Of a stretch of 31,067 nucleotides of DNA, positions 1 through 10,645 are shown in pieces. The position numbers and the translations under genes were made by a program. The DNA lies in the NCBI GenBank assembly GCA_021795795.1, contig JAJYPA010000042.1, forward strand, positions 1 to 31,067, written 5' to 3'. Position 1 is the stretch's first letter. Each line of letters begins with the position of its first letter. The notes under the pieces were generated by a model, which was not told the DNA's origin, did not search any database, and saw only the letters and a program-made list of their open reading frames with translations. This DNA is from Pseudomonadota bacterium. Lineage in GTDB: Bacteria; Pseudomonadota; Gammaproteobacteria; Halothiobacillales; Halothiobacillaceae.

Positions 1-150
1 GAGTAAAAACCGGGCAAAGCTGCTTGGAAAGGTAGCCGTTTGTTGTGGAATTTGAGCCGGATTCGGCCACAGGCATGATTCAGTGGCAGAATTCATTGAA
101 AATATCGGGTTATTCGAGCTGCCCGAACCTGATTGAGTGATTTTGGTGAA

Positions 151-187
151 GGGGTGTTTATATCCATCAACGCCCCCCTATTTCTTA
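151..187 (+). terminator. Possible rho-independent terminator in the left leader
   Basis: GGGGTGTT (151-158) can pair with AACGCCCC (169-176) through one G-T wobble, with a 10-base loop, and is followed by a pyrimidine-rich tail. It could end a gene lying left of the window. In bases 1-150 I see only a short open frame of about 17 codons that stops at base 54; it is too short to identify. Confidence 0.3.
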
Positions 188-230
188 TCGAGCCAATTAA
201 AACAAAGGGATGGATGAATGAGAGTCGATT

Positions 231-288
231 TATACACCTGCCGCTTGTCTGAATATGCACCTGCCAAGGTGTATATTGGGTGTTAGGC
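231..288 (+). other. Possible integron recombination junction (attI-like or degenerate attC)
   Basis: A GTTAGGC core (282-288) of the GTTRRRY type used by integron integrases lies 35 bases before the first cassette gene. A perfect 9-bp inverted repeat, TATACACCT (231-239) and AGGTGTATA (267-275), lies to its left. An imperfect direct repeat ending in CACCTGCC occurs at 235-242 and 258-265. No matching left core (RYYYAAC) is evident, so this is not a clear attC. It could be an attI site, a degenerate attC or chance. The two good attC sites downstream make a recombination junction likely here. Confidence 0.35.
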
Positions 289-323
289 ACTGTATCATTT
301 ACACACGACGAGGAGCCATATAA

Positions 324-797
324 ATGAAAACAATAATTACAATATTTTTTGTCGCCGTTTTATCTTTCGGATGCGCAAGCATCGACTCAACAGTTTCTAA
401 AGCTTATGTCCCAGGTAATAGAAGCCAGCTTGCACTATCAATTAAGCAAGATTCAGGAGTGTCTATACCTTCGGAGCAGAAGCAGTTACTTGAAAATCAA
501 ATCAGAGAAGGTCTGTCACAAAAAGGCTTATTAGCTTCTGATGAAAACAACTCTCAGCACTCAGTCATTGTGAATATACACACCTTTAGAATGAGAGATG
601 ATGCGGCTCGCCTGACTGTGGGTATCATGGCCGGATGCGATAATATTAGCAGTACGGTTGTTGTAACTGACAAAATAACTGGAAAAGAGATCGGAAACGC
701 TAAAATCTCAATAAAAGAATGTGCCGCTTGGGGCGTTGCGAGTCAGGTTATTACAAAATATACAGATGGTGTAGTAGCCTATCTTACGAACAAATAA
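324..797 (+). CDS. Small lipoprotein, DUF4410-like (cassette 1)
   Basis: The 157-residue protein starts with a lipoprotein signal peptide: a short charged N-terminus, a hydrophobic stretch and lipobox LSFGC with Cys17. The mature part is soluble-looking. It resembles small DUF4410-type lipoproteins, which have a variable N-terminal half, a beta-rich middle (around VVVTDKITGKEIG) and a Gly/Ala-rich C-terminal helix; this family call is only a resemblance. The start is ATG with a GAGG-type ribosome site (GACGAGGAGCC) upstream. Its stop codon is 3 bases before an attC site, as expected of an integron gene cassette. Codon use is AT-rich compared with the chromosome to the right. Function is unknown; it is probably anchored in the outer membrane. 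Confidence 0.75.
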   Translation: MKTIITIFFVAVLSFGCASIDSTVSKAYVPGNRSQLALSIKQDSGVSIPSEQKQLLENQIREGLSQKGLLASDENNSQHSVIVNIHTFRMRDDAARLTVGIMAGCDNISSTVVVTDKITGKEIGNAKISIKECAAWGVASQVITKYTDGVVAYLTNK

Positions 798-800
798 ATG

Positions 801-886
801 CATAACTGTGTGTTCGAGGCGGACGCGGTGAGACAGCGTGCCGCTTCGGTTGTTGTTTGGCCGCGCCGCTCAACACGGCGTTATGT
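801..886 (+). other. Integron attC site 1 (end of cassette 1)
   Basis: CATAAC (801-806) and GTTATGT (880-886) form the outer R boxes. The left arm TGTGTTCGAGGCGGACGCGG pairs with the right arm CCGCGCCGCTCAACACG apart from unpaired extra bases on one arm. These unpaired bases are the extrahelical bases that orient integrase on a folded attC strand. The length of about 86 bases is normal for attC. It sits directly after the lipoprotein stop codon and 73 bases before the reverse transcriptase start. Confidence 0.85.
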
Positions 887-959
887 CTCTTGGTGCCTCA
901 ATCCAGCCTTGCAGTATCCTGGCCCTAGAGTCATCTAGGCGTAGAACTTAAGGAAAACC

Positions 960-2561
960 ATGCACATCGACGCAGCAATTGAAATTGCGCTTAAAAACAT
1001 AGCTCGTCATGGCGACACGGACGTTTTTCCATTCCCGTTGGAAAAACTTATATTTCACGACAAGTTGCAAGAATCGAAAGATCTGCTCAAGCAGATTCAC
1101 GCAAATTTCGATGATTTCATTGCTAGGTATCCACCGGACACTCTTGAGACCCTCACTCAGGTCGGATATACAGGCTTTCGTTGGACAACCCAGATACAGC
1201 CGTTCTGGAACGCCTACTACCTGTCTTTGGTCATTACGCTGGCAGAACAAATCGAAGAACAGCGAATTTCTATAGATGATGCCTCCGTCTACTCATATCG
1301 ATATGAATGGGACGAAGGGGAGGCCAAATTATTCTCCGCAAGTTCATGGAAGGATTATCGGCAGAGGTCGTTCGACCTAAGTGGAGTGTACAAATATGTT
1401 GTTATCACAGATATCGCAGATTTTTATCCTCGGGTTTATCACCATCGGCTAGAAAATGCATTAAACCGGCTTCCGTCCTCTGGCGACGCGCCTAATAGGA
1501 TCATGAAGCTTTTAATGAGCTTCTCTAAGAATGTGTCCTATGGCCTTCCTGTCGGCGGCCCAGCATCCCGAATCCTAGCCGAATTGTGCCTTGACTCTAC
1601 GGATCGACTGCTGCTGAGGAACAGGGTCAAATTTTGTCGTTACGTCGACGACTACACAATTTTCTGCGATGACAAGACAGACGCCTACCGCGTACTTGTT
1701 CTGTTGTCAGAGAGCCTTTTCAATGAAGGGCTCGTTCTTCAAAAGAATAAAACCAAGATCCTGACGGCAGACGAGTTTCGTTCATCTACTAAGCTTTTGG
1801 ACCCGAAGGATTCGGACGACCCGCTGGCTAGCGATGAACAAAAGCTGCTTAACATTACACTTCGGTACGACCCTTACTCTGAAACGGCTGAAGATGATTA
1901 CGAAGCGCTAAAGGCCGCGATGACAGACATCGATATCATTGGAATTCTTGGACGCGAAGTTGCCAAGACAAACATTGATTCGACTGTGGCTAAGCAGGCA
2001 ATCAAAGCGATACAGGCCCTTGAGCCCAACAAACAGTTCGGAGCCATAAGTACTTTGCTCGGTGAGAACAATGTGGAGGTTCTTGCACCTGTCTTCGTCA
2101 CGGTGATGCGTGCGGTTCGAGGGGTGTATGAAAATCTTCCTGATTACGATCAGGCTTTCGTAGACCGAAAGCTTATTGCTCTTTATGAGTCAGACTCTCA
2201 CCTCTTGAGTGTCGATCTGAACATGAGTTTCTTCCTTCAGGCGTTGGCTCAGAAGCAAAGTGCAAGGAAGGAAGAAATCCTTATAGAAATATACGAAAAG
2301 AAGACCAACCCATTGATAAAGCGATTGATTCTTGTCGCAATGTCTAACTGGGCCTGTCATTACTGGCTCACCGATCTGAAGCGGAAGTATGCCGGCCTTT
2401 CTGAGTGGGAAAAGCGTTACTTCATCGGATCTTCTTACGTGTTGGGTGATGAGGGGAAGCATTGGAGAAATCATATCAAGGCGACCTGGAGCCCAATGGA
2501 TGAATTGACCAGGAATTGGTTCGCTGATCGGATGCAGAGAGACAAATGGCTACCTCTGTGA
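960..2561 (+). CDS. Reverse transcriptase, defence-type (DRT/UG-like), cassette 2
   Basis: The 533-residue protein is an RNA-directed DNA polymerase. Motif A is ITDIADFY (about 149-156), motif B GLPVGGPAS (195-203), catalytic motif C FCRYVDDYTIF (225-235) and motif D GLVLQKNKTKIL (257-268). The N-terminus has HGDTDVFPFPLE (17-28). Residues 270-533 have no visible second enzyme and look alpha-helical, possibly HEAT-like, ending with a conserved-looking GDEGKHWR (496-503). This layout fits the Abi/UG defence reverse transcriptases with C-terminal helical repeats and not group II intron or retron enzymes: I see no maturase or X/thumb intron domain. AAGGA precedes the ATG by 5 bases. The gene overlaps the nuclease-like gene by 16 bases, implying translational coupling, and the pair lies between two attC sites. 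I cannot assign the exact UG class. Confidence 0.88.
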   Translation: MHIDAAIEIALKNIARHGDTDVFPFPLEKLIFHDKLQESKDLLKQIHANFDDFIARYPPDTLETLTQVGYTGFRWTTQIQPFWNAYYLSLVITLAEQIEEQRISIDDASVYSYRYEWDEGEAKLFSASSWKDYRQRSFDLSGVYKYVVITDIADFYPRVYHHRLENALNRLPSSGDAPNRIMKLLMSFSKNVSYGLPVGGPASRILAELCLDSTDRLLLRNRVKFCRYVDDYTIFCDDKTDAYRVLVLLSESLFNEGLVLQKNKTKILTADEFRSSTKLLDPKDSDDPLASDEQKLLNITLRYDPYSETAEDDYEALKAAMTDIDIIGILGREVAKTNIDSTVAKQAIKAIQALEPNKQFGAISTLLGENNVEVLAPVFVTVMRAVRGVYENLPDYDQAFVDRKLIALYESDSHLLSVDLNMSFFLQALAQKQSARKEEILIEIYEKKTNPLIKRLILVAMSNWACHYWLTDLKRKYAGLSEWEKRYFIGSSYVLGDEGKHWRNHIKATWSPMDELTRNWFADRMQRDKWLPL

Positions 2562-3316
2562 TTTCGGAAAAAGCGGTAGCGTCAGTATTCAATGGCTTTT
2601 GGGCTGATACTCTCCCTTTGCTCACGGCTTCATTTGTTAGGGTTTTCAATGAGGCACATTGTGAGAATCTTGTTGATCTACCGTCGAGCAGGTTTGTTCG
2701 TATTCCAATTGCGCGCGAGGTCGAGCTGCATGATTTGGTTGCGGAGTTTGCGTTTTGCGCGGCGGAGGTTGCCCATGCGACTGGGAAGCCTTTGGCTGCT
2801 ATCTCCACAGACACAGCGCTCGTTTCAGAAATTTATGCCAAGGCGATCCTATTTCTAAAACGATATGAATCTGCTGACGATGAGATGCTCCTCAATGTGG
2901 TTGAGGTCGAGGAGGCGTTTCGGCTGGCCAGTCAATATCAGTATTTTTTTGACTATCTTCGGTTGCATCACGCCGATATTGAATTTCGCCCGAAAGTTCG
3001 AGGAGCAGGATTTCTCGGTAGTTGCACCGCAGATCTTTGCGTTGGCAACACCTTGTACGAAGTTAAGGCAATCAGCCGAAACTTGGGAGGACGAGATATT
3101 AGGCAACTCCTAATTTACCTCGCGCTCCGGTGGGCAGAGGATCAACCTCAATGGGAATACGCCGGTTTTTTCAACCCGAGAAGGGCATTGCACTATCGGT
3201 TTTCTGTTGAGCATCTGATCTACCGCACCTCTGGAGGTAAATCGAAAGCTGAAGTTTTTGATCAGTTGCTGCGATTTTTGGATGCCCGTGGCATTGAGTT
3301 GGACACGCCGTTTTGA
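2546..3316 (+). CDS. PD-(D/E)XK nuclease-like partner of the reverse transcriptase
   Basis: This 256-residue protein has a strong PD-(D/E)XK signature in its C-terminal half: Asp163 in TADLCVG, Glu172-x-Lys174 in LYEVKA, then Gln187 in IRQLLIYLAL, with a Gly-rich lead-in (RGAGFLGS, 152-159). The order D-ExK-QxxxY matches restriction-endonuclease-fold DNases. Residues 1-145 are helical and unlike anything I recognise; they may contact the reverse transcriptase or nucleic acid. There is no signal peptide. The ATG lies inside the end of the reverse transcriptase gene in another frame, so both are made from one mRNA. I infer an effector that cuts nucleic acid when the reverse transcriptase senses infection. 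The fold call is from motifs only, with no alignment. Confidence 0.75.
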   Translation: MATSVISEKAVASVFNGFWADTLPLLTASFVRVFNEAHCENLVDLPSSRFVRIPIAREVELHDLVAEFAFCAAEVAHATGKPLAAISTDTALVSEIYAKAILFLKRYESADDEMLLNVVEVEEAFRLASQYQYFFDYLRLHHADIEFRPKVRGAGFLGSCTADLCVGNTLYEVKAISRNLGGRDIRQLLIYLALRWAEDQPQWEYAGFFNPRRALHYRFSVEHLIYRTSGGKSKAEVFDQLLRFLDARGIELDTPF

Positions 3317-3340
3317 GAGGGCGCCAAAATGAACACGAGA

Positions 3341-3438
3341 CATAACAAATCGCTGCAGCGGACATTTGACCCGCTGCCCACTTTTGCTTCCGCAAAAGCA
3401 GGCATCGCCTCAAATGCCGCTGAGCTCAGGCGTTGAGG
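3341..3438 (+). other. Integron attC site 2 (end of cassette 2)
   Basis: The left arm CAGCGGACATTTGA (from about 3356) pairs with TCAAATGCCGCTG on the right, leaving one extrahelical A. The outer cores are CATAAC (3341-3346) and GTTGAGG (3432-3438). The middle folds as TGCC-CA-CTTTTGC, a TTCC loop, then GCAAAAG-CA-GGCA. The left core followed by AAATCGCTGCAGCGGAC is typical of chromosomal integron attC sites. It begins 24 bases after the stop codon of the nuclease-like gene. Confidence 0.88.
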
Positions 3439-3589
3439 CTGTAGAAAAACCTCCTCGGCAAGAATATCCATGACCATGAGCAAAACCGACTCCACAAAAT
3501 GCTCTGTAATTGACTACCGTCTTGACGGGAAGGGTCAAGGCAATCCTTGAAATTTCCTGTTTCGCCCCTCAAGGGTTTTTTTCTACAGC
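3438..3589. repeat. MITE-like element with terminal inverted repeats
   Basis: GCTGTAGAAAAACC (3438-3451) is repeated in inverted form as GGGTTTTTTTCTACAGC (3573-3589). Twelve terminal bases are identical, followed by a 2-base indel. The 152-base interval has no convincing gene but holds smaller hairpins such as CTTGAC/GTCAAG near 3515-3535. This fits a non-autonomous insertion element or the two ends of a decayed insertion sequence. I see no clear target duplication. It lies between attC 2 and the parE pseudogene. Confidence 0.45.
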
Positions 3590-3593
3590 GTCA

Positions 3594-3896
3594 TTAGGCT
3601 GGGAAAACAGCCTGATGAACGTCCATATTTTTATGAAGTACGCGAACAACTAGAATCTCCTCGTCGGAGAGGCAATCGAAAAAAACCACGTGGCTCTGAA
3701 AAGGGTATTTGCGCAGGCCGGATTCGATGTAATCACAGGCATACCCAATTGTTGGCGAATCGGCCAGTATCTTGAAAGTTTCATCCAAGCCTTTGAGGTA
3801 ATGCAGGCGTTGTGCTTTTCCTCAGGGTTGTTCTGTGAATCGAGCAATTCCACGCAAATCAGATTTGGCCGCGCGGCTAAGGGAAAATATGCCCAT
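3594..3896 (-). pseudogene. parE: ParE/RelE-superfamily toxin with an in-frame stop
   Basis: One uninterrupted frame runs from ATG (3896) to the stop at 3594, 101 codons, apart from a TGA at 3822-3824 (codon 25). Before it reads MGIFSLSRAAKSDLRG and IARFTEQP; after it GKAQRLHYLKGLDETFKILA and, further on, FPFQ-type and VVRVLHKNMDVHQAVF segments typical of ParE C-termini. Family members usually have Trp at this position (the W-G-K/E-x-Q pattern), so a TGG to TGA change would explain the break. The ATG overlaps the antitoxin stop by one base, the usual parDE arrangement. The toxin is probably inactive unless the stop is read through or translation restarts at the internal ATG at 3788. Confidence 0.8.
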
Positions 3897-4135
3897 TAAC
3901 TCAATTCATTATCGAGTTCAGCCATAAACTTTTCATAGCTGTATTCAGCCGTTCCGCGGGCTCTGCCTTCTGCAATCAATTGGCGCAGTGTTTCCAGTTT
4001 CTGTTCTTCATCCTCAAGCAGGCGCAAACCAGCGCGTACTACCCCTGTAGCCGAGCCATAGCGGCCTTTTGAAAGTTGGGCGGCAATAAACTGATCGAAA
4101 TGATCTCCCAAGCTAACACTGGTGTTTTTCGCCAT
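3896..4135 (-). CDS. parD: ParD-type antitoxin
   Basis: The 79-residue protein begins MAKNTSVSLGDHFDQFI, the usual start of a ParD ribbon-helix-helix DNA-binding domain. SKGRYGSATGVVRAGLRLLE completes the helices, and a charged C-terminal tail (about 45-79) would bind toxin. I chose the ATG at 4135 over the one at 4150 because GGAG sits 8 bases before it and family members start MAKNTSV. It should neutralise ParE and repress its own promoter; a palindrome lies just upstream. It appears intact although its toxin partner is broken. The pair is inverted relative to the other cassette genes. Confidence 0.88.
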   Translation of the reverse strand: MAKNTSVSLGDHFDQFIAAQLSKGRYGSATGVVRAGLRLLEDEEQKLETLRQLIAEGRARGTAEYSYEKFMAELDNELS

Positions 4136-4154
4136 TGGGGCAGTCTCCAAGAAA

Positions 4155-4169
4155 TACCAATATTTGGTA
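4155..4169 (-). promoter_or_regulatory. Probable ParD operator palindrome
   Basis: TACCAA-TAT-TTGGTA is a perfect 6-3-6 palindrome 19 bases upstream of the antitoxin start. ParD proteins bind such sites to autoregulate parDE. The binding itself is inferred. Confidence 0.5.
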
Positions 4170-4184
4170 GATATTGCAGGAGGT

Positions 4185-4208
4185 GCCTAACAAGTCAATC
4201 CAGCAGAC
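4185..4208 (+). other. Truncated attC-like left end
   Basis: GCCTAAC followed by AAGTCAATCCAGCAGAC looks like the left arm of an attC (R box plus start of the stem). No complementary right arm with GTTRRRY is visible in the next 150 bases. It probably marks where the cassette array was cut or decayed. From here to 4361 I see no gene or other structure. Confidence 0.45.
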
Positions 4209-4361
4209 CCACAACTCCGCGCGGTTTTTTGACCATGGCTCGCCATTTTTGTGCTAACGACACTCGCCCCTCGGTCATCCGTGAACGAAGGGCGCCAAGG
4301 TGGGTACAGCACTGAAATCAATCGTGCAAGAAATTGAACGCGCAGAGTTTTCGTCATGTCC

Positions 4362-5036
4362 TCATGATGCTTTACTCCAATCTCCCTGCCAGACAACCGG
4401 GCCGACCGGCTTGTTGCCAATCGGCTTGCCAGTGGGTTCCAAACTAATGGCGAGTGTGGTTTGTGCAATCGTATTGCTCCAGAGTGCAGGACGGACAGTG
4501 ACGCTTTCCCCTTTATTCATCGGCAAACGCCCGACTGCTACCGTTTGTCCTTGCGGGGTAATTAACCACAGAACGGCTTGTTTATTCGCTGGTTGATCGG
4601 TGGTTGTCAGGCTCGTTATTTGAATCTGTTGCGTCGCCGTATCTGCCTTTGCTTCCCATGTGGCTGATTGGCCTTGTGCCATCGGCATCATGGCGATTGA
4701 ATCAGCATTCATAGCGGGTTGATGTGGCACAAAGACCCCGACGAGCAGACCGATTCCAATCATGGCGACAATGGCTGCAGCCATGCGCCAACGTCGCAAT
4801 GCGCTGCCGACATCCTTCGCCTGATGATCGAGCTGTCGTTCGATGCGTGACCATACCCAGCCGGGCAACGGACGCGATTCGCATTGTGACAGCAGGTGAT
4901 CAGAGATGATTAGCGACCAGTTGGCGACGGCACGCCGCTGCTCGGGCGATGCTTTGATTGCCCGCTCGGTCAACCGATCAGTAGGTTCGTCCAGCAGACC
5001 GAGGACATATTCGATGTGTTCAGTGGATTCGTTCAT
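4362..5036 (-). CDS. RskA-like anti-sigma factor
   Basis: The 224-residue membrane protein starts with a cytoplasmic helical domain (about 1-80: VLGLLDEPTDRLTERAIKAS, PEQRRAVANW) that would hold the sigma factor. One transmembrane helix follows (about 85-103), then a periplasmic beta-rich domain (about 120-224) with the AVLWLITPQGQTVAVGRLP and PTGKPIG segments found in RskA/anti-sigma-K C-termini. No zinc-binding HxxxCxxC motif is seen, so it is not the ZAS/ChrR type. It starts one base after the sigma factor stop, so the pair is co-translated. A periplasmic signal presumably triggers release of the sigma factor. Confidence 0.85.
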   Translation of the reverse strand: MNESTEHIEYVLGLLDEPTDRLTERAIKASPEQRRAVANWSLIISDHLLSQCESRPLPGWVWSRIERQLDHQAKDVGSALRRWRMAAAIVAMIGIGLLVGVFVPHQPAMNADSIAMMPMAQGQSATWEAKADTATQQIQITSLTTTDQPANKQAVLWLITPQGQTVAVGRLPMNKGESVTVRPALWSNTIAQTTLAISLEPTGKPIGNKPVGPVVWQGDWSKAS

Positions 5037-5037
5037 G

Positions 5038-5661
5038 TCAGTTCACCAAGCCAAGACAGGATTTGAGATTGATTAAGGCGCGTCGAATCCAGCTTTTCAC
5101 GGTGCTGAGTGACGTGGAGAGTTCATCGGCAATTTCTTGGTAGGTGTGACCAAACCAGAAAGCTTTGTGGATGGCCTGACGCGGTTCGGCACGCAGTGCC
5201 TCGAGGCACCGTGTCATGGCCTCGCGATCCATGAGTTGCCAGTCGTGGGGATCGCCGTCCACCGATCCTCCTTGGTGGCCCTCCGGGGAGAGTAGGGGCG
5301 CATCGGCCAGTGCCAGAAAATCAGCCCAGTCCGCTGTGGTGATTTCCCGGTTGAACCGGCGCAACAAGCTGATCGCACGATGGTGCGCGATGGCGGCCAG
5401 CCAGGTCATCGGCTGCGCGCGCGCCGGATCAAATCGCCCCGCTTGCTGCCAAACCGCCAGAAAAACATCCTGAACGCACTCCTGCGCGCGACCTTCCTCT
5501 TTTAGGATGCGTAGGCACAACCCGTAAAGTGGGCCGGATGTGCGTTGATACAGTTTTTGGAATGCGGACCGGTCCCCCGCTGCCGTGGCTTGCAACCACT
5601 GGGTGAGCTGATCATCGTCTTGGTTACGGTCCTTGTTCGATCGATTGGGTTTCATGCTCAT
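5038..5661 (-). CDS. ECF RNA polymerase sigma factor (SigK-like)
   Basis: From the preferred ATG at 5661 the protein has 207 residues. Region 2 covers FQKLYQRTSGPLYGLCLRIL and the AQECVQDVFLAVWQQ / MTWLAAIAHHRAISLLRR segments; region 4 includes FWFGHTYQEIADELSTSLST and VKSWIRRALINLKSCL, a helix-turn-helix for the -35 element. A longer frame reaches 5811, but its extra 50 residues are low-complexity, and AGGAG lies 10 bases before 5661. It pairs with the RskA-like gene downstream and is divergent from the RiPP precursor operon; ECF factors control some bufferin-type operons. Control of the neighbouring operon is inference. Confidence 0.88.
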   Translation of the reverse strand: MSMKPNRSNKDRNQDDDQLTQWLQATAAGDRSAFQKLYQRTSGPLYGLCLRILKEEGRAQECVQDVFLAVWQQAGRFDPARAQPMTWLAAIAHHRAISLLRRFNREITTADWADFLALADAPLLSPEGHQGGSVDGDPHDWQLMDREAMTRCLEALRAEPRQAIHKAFWFGHTYQEIADELSTSLSTVKSWIRRALINLKSCLGLVN

Positions 5662-5960
5662 GCCGATCCGGCTCCTCTTGATTCGTTTGGAGGGGTGGTT
5701 CATCCCGTCGTTCGACACACTGCGCTGGCGATTATCCGCGGGGATGTTCTTGGAAGATCGCTTGGCGTGCTCATCATCGCATGCATGCGGCGCGTGTCGA
5801 GCGGTGTGCAAACCCTCATCGTTTCATTTTTCTGTTTGCTCACACCTCAGAATACGTGCTCAAGTGGGATTTGGTTGCATTTCGCGTTCAGTTTATTTCA
5901 ACCGTTAACGATCTTTTTTGCATCCCATCGCCACTTTCGTGCGTAGATGAATTGCGATAA

Positions 5961-5987
5961 GAACCTGCTCGCAATCAGTCGAGCGTC
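5961..5987 (+). promoter_or_regulatory. Candidate ECF-type promoter for the RiPP operon
   Basis: GAACCT (5961-5966) and CGTC (5984-5987) are separated by 17 bases, the GAAC/CGTC pattern of many ECF promoters. It points toward the precursor gene and lies in the 404-base divergent intergenic space (5662-6065). No second copy was found upstream of the sigma gene, so the case is weak. Nothing else in this intergenic stretch stands out. Confidence 0.25.
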
Positions 5988-6065
5988 GTGAGGCATTTAA
6001 ATTTTCCGCTCGCGCCGGTCGGTGGAATTGTATTTACTTTTTAATGAGTTGATGGAGATTTTTTG

Positions 6066-6323
6066 ATGAAAACCCGTACTTTGAAAGCTGCTGTGATTGC
6101 CTCTACCGCCTTGTCTGCTGCCTTGGTGGCGGGGACTGCCCTGGCCAATCCGTTTGTCAGTCAGCACGGTGCCTCTCTGGTGAAGGTTTCCGATGCTTCC
6201 TGCGGTGCCAACATGAAAAAGAGCGATAGTTCTTGTGGCGCGAATATGAAGAAGAGCGACAGTTCCTGTGGTGCCAACATGAAGAAGAGTGACAGTTCCT
6301 GTGGCGCGAACATGAAAAAATAA
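6066..6323 (+). CDS. bufA: Secreted Cys-repeat RiPP precursor, bufferin/HvfA-type
   Basis: The 85-residue precursor has a Sec signal peptide (charged MKTRTLK, hydrophobic core, cleavage probably after ALA at residue 27). The mature part of about 58 residues ends in four near-identical 11-residue repeats, S-D-A/S-S-C-G-A-N-M-K-K (42-85), each with one Cys followed by Gly (Cys46, 57, 68, 79). MNIO-modified precursors of the HvfA/BufA group carry Cys-Gly repeats (EGKCG type) that become copper-binding oxazolone-thioamide or related groups; here the repeat is SSCGANMKK. GGAG lies 8 bases before the ATG. An MNIO enzyme and its partner follow. The expected role is periplasmic copper binding; the modification itself cannot be seen in DNA. 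Confidence 0.85.
   Translation: MKTRTLKAAVIASTALSAALVAGTALANPFVSQHGASLVKVSDASCGANMKKSDSSCGANMKKSDSSCGANMKKSDSSCGANMKK
6189..6320 (+). repeat. Four 33-bp coding repeats in the precursor gene
   Basis: Units 6189-6221, 6222-6254, 6255-6287 and 6288-6320 encode the 11-residue repeats. Units 2 and 4 share one set of synonymous codons (TGTGGCGCGAA), and units 1 and 3 another (TGYGGTGCCAAC). This alternation suggests growth by duplication of a 66-bp pair. Confidence 0.85.
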
Positions 6324-6340
6324 GTGCGACATGGTCGTCT

Positions 6341-6369
6341 CCCTTGGCTCACCTCCGGTGGGCTAAGGG
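6341..6369 (+). terminator. Hairpin after the precursor gene
   Basis: CCCTTGGCTCACC and GGTGGGCTAAGGG pair at 11 of 13 positions around a TCC loop, 18 bases after the precursor stop. There is no T-run, so it is more likely an mRNA-stabilising or attenuating hairpin than a full terminator. Confidence 0.4.
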
Positions 6370-6493
6370 CATCCGAACGTGATGGGGATCGATTGATTTT
6401 GCTTTGGCATTCGGTGCCTAAGCGGGATTGATCTATCCTTTAATTATCTGGGCCTATTTATTCGTGCCCTGCACACTGCTTGGTCAGCCACAT

Positions 6494-6535
6494 GGCGCCC
6501 AAGTCATTATTTGGCGTCGCCCTTGGGCCCTTTTT
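6494..6535 (+). terminator. Rho-independent terminator or attenuator before bufB
   Basis: GCCCAAG (6497-6503) pairs with CTTGGGC (6522-6528), flanking G/C bases extend the stem, and TTTTT follows at 6531-6535. It lies between the precursor and the enzyme genes, so partial termination would give more precursor than enzyme mRNA. Confidence 0.55.
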
Positions 6536-6568
6536 AAGAAGTCACGTGCCGGCCTGACAGTGTGGAGG

Positions 6569-6590
6569 GTGATTCGAAAAAGCGAATCAC
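6569..6590 (+). promoter_or_regulatory. Perfect 8-bp hairpin/palindrome upstream of bufB
   Basis: GTGATTCG-AAAAAG-CGAATCAC is a perfect inverted repeat 66 bases before the bufB start. It could be a regulator site or an RNA hairpin; nothing else identifies it. Confidence 0.35.
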
Positions 6591-6656
6591 GATCACGCTA
6601 TCCTGACTACCCCGCTTTCGGGTTGACGCCCCTTGATACTGGCGAAGGAGGTTGCA

Positions 6657-7505
6657 ATGAATACCGATGCGAATCGCGTGCCGGTCGGCGTGGGTCTGCG
6701 GCGCGGCCCGTTGATGCAGCAGATCGAAGCCGAACACCCCGATCTTGATTTTCTGGAAGTTGCGCCGGAGAACTGGATGCGTTTGGGGGGTGCTGTCAAA
6801 CGGCAGTTCGAGTCCTTGCTGGCACGCTATCCCCTGTATCTGCATGGACTGTCGCTCTCGATCGGCGGGCCGGCGTCACTGGATGTGGATTTTCTCAAAT
6901 CGCTGCGTGCATTTATTGATCGTTATCAACCCGTCCTCTACAGTGAACATCTCTCGTTTTGTACGGACAATGCGCACCTATACGACTTGATGCCAATTCC
7001 GTTTACGCGGGCGGCAGTACGCCATGTGGTCGAGCGCATCCATCGCGCTCAGGACATTCTGGGGCAACGGCTGACGTTGGAGAATGTGTCTTATTACACC
7101 GCGCCCGATGCCGAAATGAACGAGCTGGCATTTCTGACCGAGATTCTGCAGCAAGCCGATTGCGATTTGTTGCTCGATGTAAACAATGTGTACGTCAATA
7201 GCGTCAATCACCGCTACGATCCGGTGGCCTTTCTTGATGCCCTGCCGATCGAACGCGTGCGCTACCTGCATGTGGCGGGGCATTTGCAGCTCAGCCCCGA
7301 TTTGATTGTTGATACGCACGGTGCCGCCGTTGCCGATCCGGTCTGGGATTTACTGGCGCACACATACACCCGTTTTGGGGCCGTGCCGACGCTGCTGGAG
7401 CGGGATTTTGATATCCCGCCGCTGGCGCATTTGATGCAGGAGGTCGCCCAGATTCGCCGTGTAGCCGCCGGTGCGCACAACAAATTGCTGGAGCCGGTGG
7501 CATGA
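6657..7505 (+). CDS. bufB: MNIO-family (DUF692) multinuclear iron RiPP-modifying enzyme
   Basis: The 282-residue protein matches the usual DUF692/MNIO length. Metal-ligand motifs of the TIM barrel appear in order: YLHGLSLSIGG (His63), YSEHLSF (Glu97, His98), LENVSYY (Glu142, Asn143), LLLDVNNVYVNS (Asp174, Asn176), HVAGH (His205, His209), DTHG (Asp219, His221), VADPVWDLL (Asp227) and LERDFDIPP (Glu249). These enzymes hold two or three irons and modify Cys residues of a precursor peptide using oxygen. GGAGG precedes the ATG at 6657; an upstream start at 6633 lacks this support. The gene overlaps the next by 4 bases. It should act in the cytoplasm on the repeat precursor before export. Confidence 0.92.
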   Translation: MNTDANRVPVGVGLRRGPLMQQIEAEHPDLDFLEVAPENWMRLGGAVKRQFESLLARYPLYLHGLSLSIGGPASLDVDFLKSLRAFIDRYQPVLYSEHLSFCTDNAHLYDLMPIPFTRAAVRHVVERIHRAQDILGQRLTLENVSYYTAPDAEMNELAFLTEILQQADCDLLLDVNNVYVNSVNHRYDPVAFLDALPIERVRYLHVAGHLQLSPDLIVDTHGAAVADPVWDLLAHTYTRFGAVPTLLERDFDIPPLAHLMQEVAQIRRVAAGAHNKLLEPVA

Positions 7506-8272
7506 ACACGGATTTTTTGACACTACAGTCTCAGTTCACCGCTTTTATCCGCAATCCCGAGCACGCGCCGGTGCCCGAAGGTTGCGATCCCGAGCGGATG
7601 AAACTGTACCATCAGCTGTTCTTCAATAATTTTGATGGAATATTGGAAAGCACCTACGAGCGCACGCGCGCCCACATCGCCGATGATCAATGGCAAGTGC
7701 TGGTGAAATTATTCTTCTCAACCGTGCCGCAACACTCCCCTTATCTTGTGGATGTGCCCGGACGATTTCTCGATTTTCTTCAGGAGCAGAACGCGGTAGC
7801 ACTATCCGAGGCATTGTTGGAGTTGGCCGCCTTTGAGGCGACGCTGCACGAATGCCGGATGGCCGAGGATATAGCGCTACCCGAAGCGCCGGTATCGCTG
7901 CCCGACGCTCTGTTCGACTGCGCTTGGCAGCCGCATCCCCAAGGCGTGCTGTTTGAAAGTGCCTTTCCGGTGAATCAGGCCGATTTCTCGCTTGATGAAG
8001 TGCCCACCGAGCCAACTTTGCTCTGGATCCAGCGGGATGATGCCGGCGTGGTGCAGATCTATAATTTATCAGCTGCCAGCGCGCGCTGGCTCGTGCTGCT
8101 GGATGCCCATGAGGATGCACTTCCAGGTCAATCGTTGGCACAACTGGCCCATGAGCTCAATGTTGCGCCAGAGAACCTGACCGAGTTTGCACGCGCGCAA
8201 CTGGCCGACTGGATTGCCGATGGTGTTTTGATTCCGGCCTCAGGCAATCAGCACAATGCAGCTTGCGCTTGA
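7502..8272 (+). CDS. bufC: DUF2063 / HvfC-BufC-type RiPP partner protein
   Basis: The 256-residue protein has an N-terminal DUF2063 domain (about 5-95: LQSQFTAFIRNPEHAPVPEG, MKLYHQLFFNNFDGILESTY, PYLVDVPGRFLDFLQ), which in this family helps present the precursor to the MNIO enzyme. The C-terminal half (about 130-250) has a small beta-rich domain and a helical tail like the winged C-terminus of HvfC/BufC proteins. ATGA overlap with bufB shows tight coupling. No catalytic residues are apparent. The following decayed gene starts inside its last codons. Confidence 0.88.
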   Translation: MNTDFLTLQSQFTAFIRNPEHAPVPEGCDPERMKLYHQLFFNNFDGILESTYERTRAHIADDQWQVLVKLFFSTVPQHSPYLVDVPGRFLDFLQEQNAVALSEALLELAAFEATLHECRMAEDIALPEAPVSLPDALFDCAWQPHPQGVLFESAFPVNQADFSLDEVPTEPTLLWIQRDDAGVVQIYNLSAASARWLVLLDAHEDALPGQSLAQLAHELNVAPENLTEFARAQLADWIADGVLIPASGNQHNAACA

Positions 8273-8936
8273 ATTTTTGATTAACGTTTTCGTACAGCTC
8301 ACGCTGGTGAGCATGGATCTGCTCGTTCCGGTTCTTGCTGCTAATACAACGCCTTTGCAAGCAGGGCATGAAATCACTCGCCCCGATGTCGATTAGCCAA
8401 AATTTCCAGCCGCGCTGCCAGAAAAGCTCGATCACTCACTCACGGCGCAAGCCCAGTAAAAAAGCCATGAACAGGAGCAGAAAACGCCCGATTGGTACAC
8501 CCGTTGGTTCAGTGTCGATGGCCAGCCGCTGTTTAACAATCGCCTGATTTTGAGCGATTTTCCCTACCTGCTCGAACACGCCCACAATCCGGTCAACTGG
8601 TACGCCTATGTCCCTGAGGTGCTGGCGGCGGCCAAGGCGCAGAACAAACCGCTGTTCATTTAGATCGGCTAAGCCAGCTGTTATTGGTGTTATGCGATGG
8701 CGCGCGCGAGTTTTTAATCGGCGGCTGTCGCGCGGGAATTGAATCGCGATTTCATTGCGGTGAAGATTGATCGTCAGCTGCAGCCAAAACCGGGTCATCG
8801 CTATCAGATTGTAGTGGCATTGGTAAATCAGGAGCAAAGCGGCTGGCCGGCCAGTGTGTTTGTGCTGCCGGCCCGACCGACCGTTTTTCACCCAACTGTA
8901 TCAACCGGAATCAGCTTTTACCGGATCAAGGCGTGA
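8256..8936 (+). pseudogene. Decayed DUF255/thioredoxin-like gene (YyaL N-terminal type)
   Basis: One frame of 227 codons from ATG 8256 to TGA 8934-8936 reads as a DUF255 thioredoxin-fold domain: FPYLLEHAHNPVNWYAY, then AAAKAQNKPLFI, a CYWC redox motif (8679-8690), RELNRDFIAVKIDRQ and GWPASVFVLPARP. Five stops interrupt it: TAG 8394, TAA 8457, TAG 8661, TAA 8670 and TAA 8715. No frameshift is needed. The N-terminus (about 1-30) is hydrophobic, so the ancestor was probably exported or membrane-bound. The ATG overlaps the end of bufC by 17 bases, so it was once the last gene of the RiPP operon, perhaps for redox handling of the Cys-rich product; that role is inference. Confidence 0.82.
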
Positions 8937-9025
8937 TCTCCCCCCACCGCGGCTCTTTGATGCCTGGCTTTCCTGCCCGGCACGCTTGGCGTTCGCTGCG
9001 TTAGGGGAGAGGGAGCCTTAGCACC

Positions 9026-9333
9026 TTCCCCCTTGATGGGGGAAGGATGGGATGGGGGTGCTGGTTTCACCCCCTCACCCCGAGCCAATTCCCCCTCCCC
9101 AACCCCTCCCCACAAGGGGGAGGGGCTTTTTCTCATTCCCCCTTGATGGGGGAAGGATGGGATGGGGGTGCTGGTTTCACCCCCTCACCCCGAGCCAATT
9201 CCCCCTCCCCAACCCTTACCCACAAGGGGGAGGGGCTTTTTCTCATTCCCCCTTGATGGGGGAAGGATGGGATGGGGGTGCTGGCTTCACCCCCTCACCC
9301 CGACCCTCTCCCACAAGGGGAGAGGTGTTGAAT
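9026..9333. repeat. 110-bp tandem repeats rich in GC palindromes
   Basis: Units begin at 9026, 9136 and 9246; the first two are full 110-base copies with one or two differences, the third is shortened. Each contains CCCCCTTGATGGGGG and an inverted pair such as CCCTCCCC-ACAA-GGGGGAGGG. Palindromes with a CACAAG or CGCAAG loop are common dispersed intergenic repeats in proteobacteria. The array lies between the converging pseudogene and sugar dehydrogenase gene, so it may also stop transcription from both sides. Open frames across it are artefacts. The flanks (8937-9025, 9334-9361) show nothing more. Confidence 0.85.
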
Positions 9334-9361
9334 CCGCCCCTTTTGATGGTGAACCAAGCAT

Positions 9362-10645
9362 TTACAACCGAATATCTGCTTCATCGGCATTCAATACATG
9401 CTTGAGGTCGTAGAGCACATGGTTTTCTTTGCCAAGTGCGTGGAGGGCGGTTGCGCCCAGGGCTTTGAATTCTCGATGGGCGACGGCAAGCACGATGGCG
9501 TCATAGGTATTCGACAGCAGCGCGGCGGTGAGGCTGAGGCCATATTCATGCCGCGCGCAGGCGTCGTCGGCCCAGGGGTCGTGCACATCGACGGTCAGAC
9601 CGTAGTCTTTGAGTTCGGTAAGTACATCGATCACGCGGGTATTGCGCAGATCGGGGCAGTTTTCCTTGAAGGTCAGCCCCAGTACGAGCACGCGCGCGCC
9701 TTGCATGGGGATGCCTTTTTTCAGCATGGCTTTGATGAGTTGGCCGGCGACATAGGCGCCCATGCCGTCGTTGATGCGTCGCCCGGCCAAAATCATTTCC
9801 GGGTGATGGCCGACTTGCTGCGCTTTGTGGGTGAGGTAGTAGGGGTCCACGCCGATGCAGTGGCCGCCCACCAAGCCGGGACGAAACGGCAGGAAGTTCC
9901 ATTTGCTGCCCGCCGCTTCGAGCACGGCCTGGGTATCGAGCCCGAGTTTGCCGAACAGGATGGCCAGTTCGTTGATGAGCGCGATATTGACGTCGCGCTG
10001 GGTGTTTTCGATGACTTTGGCGGCCTCGGCCACGCGGATGCTGGGCGCTTGGTGGGTACCGGCGGTGATGATTTGCCGGTAGAGCGCATCGACCGTTTCG
10101 GCCACGGCGGGGGTGGAGCCGGATGTCACTTTTTTGATATCTGGCAGGCGATGGGTTTTGTCGCCGGGGTTGATGCGTTCCGGGCTGTAGCCGCAGTAAA
10201 AATCGTGGTTGAAGCGCAGGCCGGAGTGCCGTTCGAGCACCGGCACGCAATCTTCTTCGGTCGCGCCGGGGTAGACGGTGGATTCATAAATCACGATGTC
10301 GCCGGGTTTGAGCGCGCGCCCGACGATTTCGCTGGCTTTGATGAGTGGGGTGAGATCCGGGCGTTTGTGCGCGTCAATCGGCGTGGGCACGGTGACGATG
10401 AATATGCTGGCTTCACGCAGATCGGCAGGATCGACCGTATAACTCAGGTGGCGGGCATTTTGCAGTTCATCCGCCTCGACTTCGAGCGTGCGGTCATGGC
10501 CACTTTTTAATTGGTCAATGCGGGTGGCATCGATATCAAAGCCGATCACGCGGCGGATTTTGCCGAACTCGACCGCGAGCGGCAGGCCGACATAGCCCAG
10601 GCCGATAATGGCAATAATGTGTTCAGCGGGTTCCTTGCTCTTCAC
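9362..10645 (-). CDS. Nucleotide-sugar dehydrogenase (UDP-HexNAc 6-dehydrogenase, WbpO/TviB type)
   Basis: The 427-residue enzyme would oxidise C6 of a UDP-N-acetylhexosamine to a uronic acid with NAD, for surface polysaccharide. The NAD site is [16 protein letters not shown] (13-28) with GFDID (35-39). Other family motifs are VPTPID (86-91), [11 protein letters not shown] (121-131), [10 protein letters not shown] (153-162), KVTSGS (172-177), [15 protein letters not shown] (214-228) and the catalytic Cys263 in [16 protein letters not shown]. The DRTLEV segment favours the TviB/WbpO branch over plain UDP-glucose dehydrogenase. The start is GTG with AAGGAA upstream. It follows mtgA by 27 bases on the same strand. 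No glycosyltransferases are adjacent, so the polysaccharide is unknown. Confidence 0.88.

Follow-up and report, generated by a model that had tools for sequence, protein, structure and literature searches.

A DRT8 reverse transcriptase and nuclease gene pair carried as an integron cassette

Introduction

AbiK and AbiP2 are single-gene reverse transcriptase (RT) systems, and chromosomal integrons carry defense cassettes, a known kind of integron cargo that is bounded by attC sites. DRT type 8 (DRT8), which we equate with the RT group UG7, is the described system closest to the locus analyzed here. PMC12596737 describes a PD-(D/E)XK domain as characteristic of DRT8. In a commentary from 2026, DRT8 is listed among the mechanistically unresolved systems (PMC13213688), and a review from the same year also treats its mechanism as unresolved, yet reports that phage resistance is conferred by the DRT8 type (PMC13314766). 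More is described for several related systems. Class 1 UG/Abi RTs are reported to make template-free, protein-primed DNA, and the same is reported for DRT1 of class 3, in which DNA synthesis is coupled to an effector enzyme and the DNA adducts activate that effector and also keep it dormant within a filament (PMC13275509). DRT4 is presented as a single-gene RT system (PMC13213688), to which arrangement DRT8 adds a separate nuclease gene. DRT2, DRT3, and DRT9 are described as requiring a noncoding RNA (ncRNA), which for one DRT2 is given as 280 nt.

In this study, we analyzed a stretch of 31,067 nt (hereafter the window; positions 1 to 31,067 of contig JAJYPA010000042.1, assembly GCA_021795795.1) from a Pseudomonadota bacterium of the Halothiobacillaceae. 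It carries a gene pair that is, with near certainty, a DRT8 antiphage system in an integron cassette.

Results and Discussion

Identification of the DRT8 Gene Pair

The RT is encoded at 960–2561 on the plus strand (533 aa, with D151 and the YVDD motif at 228–231 in the context RYVDDY), and the RT-associated PD-(D/E)XK-type nuclease at 2546–3316 on the same strand (256 aa, with D163, E172, K174, and Q187). Both open reading frames (ORFs) and their overlap of 16 bases are as given in the first-pass annotation of this DNA. The RT matched the PADLOC model Drt8 (3.5e-165, 549 bits), for which the runner-up, RT_UG21, scored 128 bits, and its partner matched the PADLOC model RTasPDDEXK (4.6e-59, 198 bits). 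RVT_1 was the sole domain that Pfam found in the RT, which agrees with the earlier description of a YVDD RT without a maturase or nitrilase domain; no Pfam domain matched the 256-aa partner. Nothing in NCBIfam 20.0 scored above its cut-off, and the top model was Drt4 with 80.5 bits vs. 450. The first-pass annotation had placed the pair outside the named DRT types and had suggested a new RT-nuclease pairing. That suggestion is rejected, because both proteins match named parts of DRT8 (Drt8 and RTasPDDEXK), a type described in PMC12596737; such a match is what the annotation itself had given as grounds for rejection. Thus, the gene pair was already known; what had been observed was right, and the claim of novelty was not.

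Relatives were confirmed in genome contigs at 110 loci, and the best 80 of these were kept. At 78 of these best 80 loci, the ORF right after the RT matched the nuclease profile, so that the pairing is conserved and the two-gene order of the window is that of its relatives. The two misses were L076, in which the RT frame breaks off, and L079 of Aneurinibacillus, in which an RT at 5971–7563 matched the Drt8 model with full score (1.3e-165), no nuclease match lay alongside, and no ORF of more than 90 aa started within 400 nt after the RT. The two ORFs as called overlap at 74 of 79 loci (window included), by 4 nt at 46 of them, and these overlaps are upper bounds, because the called starts are the first possible ones. 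The identities of the RTs and of the nucleases correlate (r = 0.82, 75 loci). The DRT8 loci come from many phyla, and an RT in another genus is 93% identical to that of the window. Among named plasmids there was no close relative (best about 30% identity among records with at least 80% coverage); no relative was found in phages at ≥80% coverage, and none was confirmed in viral contigs. At E 1e-50, the Drt8 model matched in 3 of the 369 genomes searched from the class, and no nuclease profile match was found in the stretch examined of these three genomes. Therefore, the RT model alone delimits a "Drt8" that is broader than the two-gene system, and the wider RT clade can do without this nuclease partner.

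Catalytic Residues and Fold Evidence

D163, E172, K174, Q187, and Y191 are identical in all 79 nucleases aligned (window included), so that the D...(E)xK...Q motif of PD-(D/E)XK nucleases is present throughout and had been read correctly at first. Searches of the PDB with the nuclease profile gave no match, and those with the single sequence gave a match at chance level only (E 1.6). For the fold core, the PADLOC model gave the one match, and the 256-aa partner is a putative PD-(D/E)XK nuclease by this match and its motif. In the RT alignment (81 rows), D230 and D231 are found in 80 of 80 ungapped rows and D151 in 77 of 77; the incomplete rows are L012, L035, and L070, whose frames start late, and L073 and L074, which lie at contig ends. 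DRT2, also a defense RT, has kept its catalytic aspartates as well.

The closest solved RT by profile was 7r08 (9.3e-17), which we take to be AbiP2. For the RT of locus L046, the AbiK and Drt4 models aligned past the RT core and into the C-terminal part. The likeness of the window RT to AbiP2, AbiK, and DRT4 consists of the RT core and a partial C-terminal similarity, with no flanking ncRNA found. Three hydroxyl residues, S112, Y156, and Y306, were kept in all 75 RT rows examined, a set without L076, L079, and the short rows, and any of these residues may have a catalytic or structural role instead of a role in priming. A distant Drt8-model RT of 827 aa (L126, 2437–4920, minus strand) has a long C-terminal extension and no adjacent nuclease profile match.

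Borders of the Cassette in the Window

With cleavage placed between the G and the first T of GTT, the DRT8 cassette occupies 881–3432 of the plus strand (2,552 bp). Upstream it is bounded by the attC site of the first cassette of the array (800–886, plus strand), which was recognized by an arm scan and a single-strand fold and has R'' GCATAAC and R' GTTATGT (880–886). Downstream it is bounded by its own attC site (3340–3438, plus strand), with R'' ACATAAC at 3340–3346 and R' GTTGAGG at 3432–3438. The first 13 bases of the cassette are complementary at 12 positions to the 13 bases that end in its own R'', as expected because R' and R'' have to pair in the excised circle. The single strand of 3339–3438 folds well (bottom strand, z −5.7), while that of 798–888 folds moderately (z −1.9 for the bottom and −2.7 for the top strand). 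Hence, the earlier reading of the RT and the PD-(D/E)XK-type gene as one integron cassette is supported, with an attC-type site on each side, and its description of both sites as well folded applies to the downstream one.

Two congeneric genomes contain sites that resemble the attC site of the DRT8 cassette, with 87.5% identity in L104 and 85.4% in L105. The L104 contig, in which the 87.5% identical site lies, also has an ORF at 1449–2273 (minus strand) that appears integrase-like by eye.

Further evidence for the borders comes from locus L001 of an Acidithiobacillus metagenome-assembled genome (MAG), which is 89.6% identical to the window over 879–3414. This block begins where the cassette begins and stops within the attC site, and a comparison of L001 with window positions 1–6500 gave no match outside it. 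The empty site of L001 was sought in eight genomes of its genus (its own included), and none was found; one other genome matched the upstream flank at 73%, and the downstream flank matched in 0. The 3' junction of L001 may be a non-attC insertion site. An ORF that is P-loop ATPase-like by eye (531 aa, 8736–10331) lies directly downstream of the Acidithiobacillus cassette.

DRT8 Cassettes at Other Loci

Exactly complementary 9-base ends were found at 8 of 79 loci (window included), compared to a mean of 0.6 and a maximum of 3 in 100 mispairings, which is more than chance. With the strict canonical form of R' (GTTRRRY), a scan detected 0 of 79 loci and missed the window as well, because GTTATGT does not fit the pattern. 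Five of the eight loci were kept as cassettes: the window, L001, L046, L071, and L038. The other three were dropped: in L006, a short palindrome lies near both genes and no attC site was seen, L080 has a repeated palindromic element, and the match in L037 lies 282 nt downstream, a case judged by distance alone.

Among the loci kept, attC-like sites flank L046 on either side (z −1.8 and −2.2), and a single one was seen at the 3' end of L071 (z −2.5) and in L001 (z −6.5). L038, whose 3' site is unfolded (z +1.47), is the weakest case. The 3' R' is not GTT in L001, L038, and L071. Both proteins of L046, L071, and L038 matched the Drt8 and RTasPDDEXK models, and the RT of L001 matched as well. An integrase scored over the cut-off in all three genomes of L046, L071, and L038, in 1 of 15 other DRT8 hosts (L006 left out), and in 0 of 14 controls; none scored over the cut-off in the partial genome of L001.

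On the RT tree (76 rows), the five cassette loci require three changes, which are forced by starred branches; the placement of the long branches L077/L078, L079, L069, and L072 is unsure. Without L038, three branches remain (window/L001, L046, and L071). The three changes may be three gains or a mixture of gains and losses, between which the tree does not distinguish, and entry into cassettes more than once is to be read accordingly. A literature search, which used the term DRT8 only and had preprints and most subscription papers outside its range, returned no paper on DRT8 and integrons together. DRT8 adds an RT system to the candidate defense cargo of integrons.

Proposed Mechanism and the Question of an RNA Template

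The explanation toward which we lean, if only slightly, is that the cassette encodes a DRT8 system in which ncRNA-independent DNA synthesis by the RT gates the partner nuclease. Like AbiK, AbiP2, and DRT4, the RT would make DNA without a dedicated ncRNA, and this DNA would probably be primed on one of the RT's own hydroxyl residues. Infection would then change the RT-DNA complex such that the PD-(D/E)XK nuclease is released or activated, and the activated nuclease would cut nucleic acid and end the infection, probably together with the cell, i.e., with an abortive outcome. The logic would be that of DRT1, which also combines an RT with an effector enzyme and for which template-free, protein-primed DNA is reported, as we infer for DRT8. 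In DRT1, however, the RT and its effector, a nitrilase domain, share one chain, whereas the proposed effector of DRT8 is encoded by a separate gene, and the priming serine of DRT1 is described as not kept in the other class 3 DRTs (PMC13275509).

The cassette leaders are short. Between R' and the RT start as called, the leader measures 80 nt in the window and in L001, 93 nt in L046, 41 nt in L071, and 43 nt in L038. The leader of the window (887–959, plus strand) folds no better than shuffled sequences (z +0.34), no sigma-70-like promoter was found in 700–959, and a search of the window against Rfam gave nothing above the gathering scores. A short hairpin, CCTAGA-GTCA-TCTAGG, is present in the leaders of the window and L001.

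The flanks were compared over 250 nt on each side of the gene pair at the 69 loci with enough flanking sequence. Among pairs of loci with 50–75% RT identity, neither the upstream nor the downstream 250 nt were common to any of 224 pairs, while the first 250 coding bases were common to 177 of the same 224. At RT identities of at least 75%, the upstream flank was common to 3 of 17 pairs and the downstream flank to 3 of 17, and these include window/L001 and one identical pair. The same test was applied to eight DRT2 loci as a small control. Because the DRT2 model had matches in only 2 of 398 genomes, most of these loci were taken from plasmid records; viral contigs as a further source led nowhere. 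L135 was left out, as it has less than 90 nt upstream, and so was H28, whose coordinates equal those of H27. The upstream region was found in both DRT2 pairs with 53–54% identity (E 4e-23 and 2e-20) and also in the pairs with 87 and 94% identity; below 45%, it was found in 0 of 24 pairs, in which the coding bases were not matched either. The start of L128 was placed where the match begins, 129 nt downstream of the annotated start, so that its "upstream" stretch may hold coding bases; the L119–L129 pair (E 4e-23) is free of this caveat. The conserved upstream region of DRT2, a system for which a 280-nt ncRNA is described, is thus detected by a test that finds none in DRT8, so that by this test DRT8 does not show a flanking RNA conserved in the manner of DRT2. 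What is new in this study is this result together with DRT8 cassette leaders of only 41–93 nt.

The above results bear on the rival explanation that the RT copies an RNA template concealed within the cassette (in the genes, in the leader, or in the transcript of the attC site) and that the nuclease reads or processes the cDNA in a manner like that of retrons or of DRT2 and DRT9. The ncRNAs reported for DRT2, DRT3, and DRT9 and the leader hairpin shared by the window and L001 are in its favor, but the leader is short and folds no better than shuffles, and the flank test was negative for all 224 pairs when its DRT2 control was positive, so that we consider a hidden template unlikely. An RNA template, if there is one, could possibly be very short, lie inside the genes, or come from elsewhere in the host. 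The tight cassette borders rather suggest that a separate guide RNA may be dispensable for the system. On the assumption that the cassette carries all that the system needs, two proteins and a leader of up to about 90 nt are enough, and the borders make the ncRNA need of DRT8 a simple test. A broader proposal, which we advance tentatively and hold to be somewhat short of probable, is that DRT8 is an RNA-free, two-protein system in which untemplated, protein-primed DNA gates a nuclease, and that this minimal 2.4-kb unit more than once entered cassettes, which would be natural delimiters of the complete system.

The tight gene overlap, the co-inheritance of the two genes, and the dual role of the DNA adducts in DRT1, which are reported to activate the effector and to keep it dormant in a filament (PMC13275509), would also fit a toxin-antitoxin logic, in which the nuclease is a toxin restrained by the RT or the RT's DNA until an attack of the phage on the complex frees it. 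This is, however, a variant of the gating proposed above and not its opposite, and the toxicity of the nuclease is putative; we give it a low probability, similar to that of the hidden template.

Neighboring Cassettes and the Integron Site

The array of the window begins next to a dispersed repeat, perhaps the end of an insertion sequence (IS), at 1–124, of which copies of about 120 bp with 89–97% identity are found in genomes G001, G015, and G018; three of the copies in G001 lie less than 200 bases from a contig start. It is followed by an attI-like region (124–286, plus strand) that is 76–79% identical to a stretch spanning the 5' end of intI in G001 (contig C44). This region contains what appear, by comparison of the N-terminal residues by eye, to be the first ~15 codons of intI on the minus strand, cut by the repeat. 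The first cassette (283–880, plus strand, with GTTAGGC at 282–288) carries a DUF4410 ORF at 324–797 (Pfam PF14366, 6.9e-9). Downstream of the DRT8 cassette, an element with 16-nt inverted ends (3434–3593) belongs to a 160–170-bp repeat of the genus, found in G001, G014, G018, and G019. Most of its listed copies start on the R' position of an attC site or only a few bases away from it, which would fit a cassette that lacks an ORF or a mobile repeat linked to such sites. The array ends with a toxin-antitoxin pair at 3594–4150 (minus strand), which we assign to the ParDE-like family; its toxin frame is broken here and open in G014.

The congeners G014 and G018 have other cassettes at the same chromosomal site, which is marked by an ORF that is presumably helicase-like, an attI-like stretch, and an anti-sigma and sigma factor pair with 92% identity to window positions 4289–6300 in G014 and 4277–6300 in G018. 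DRT8 was found in 0 of 27 genomes of the order (E 1e-60), with G014 and G018 among them. In the window and at both congener sites, the intI-like frame beside the attI-like stretch comprises about the first 15 codons only (by eye); therefore, none of these three sites shows the integrase by which the cassette was moved. The short intI remnant, the broken ParE-like frame, and the lack of a sigma-70-like promoter among the upstream sequences scanned could mean that the DRT8 cassette is carried along as a passenger, inert or in decay, but both of its frames are open, their catalytic residues are in place, and a 93% identical RT occurs in another genus, which makes this reading highly improbable.

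In two congeners, this integron site (L098, 2510–6063, and L099, 4494–5700) has no more of intI than a remnant next to the attI-like stretch and holds different cassettes, which include an ORF of 590–608 aa without a PADLOC match. The nearest genome, G001, contains two integron integrases that score over the cut-off.
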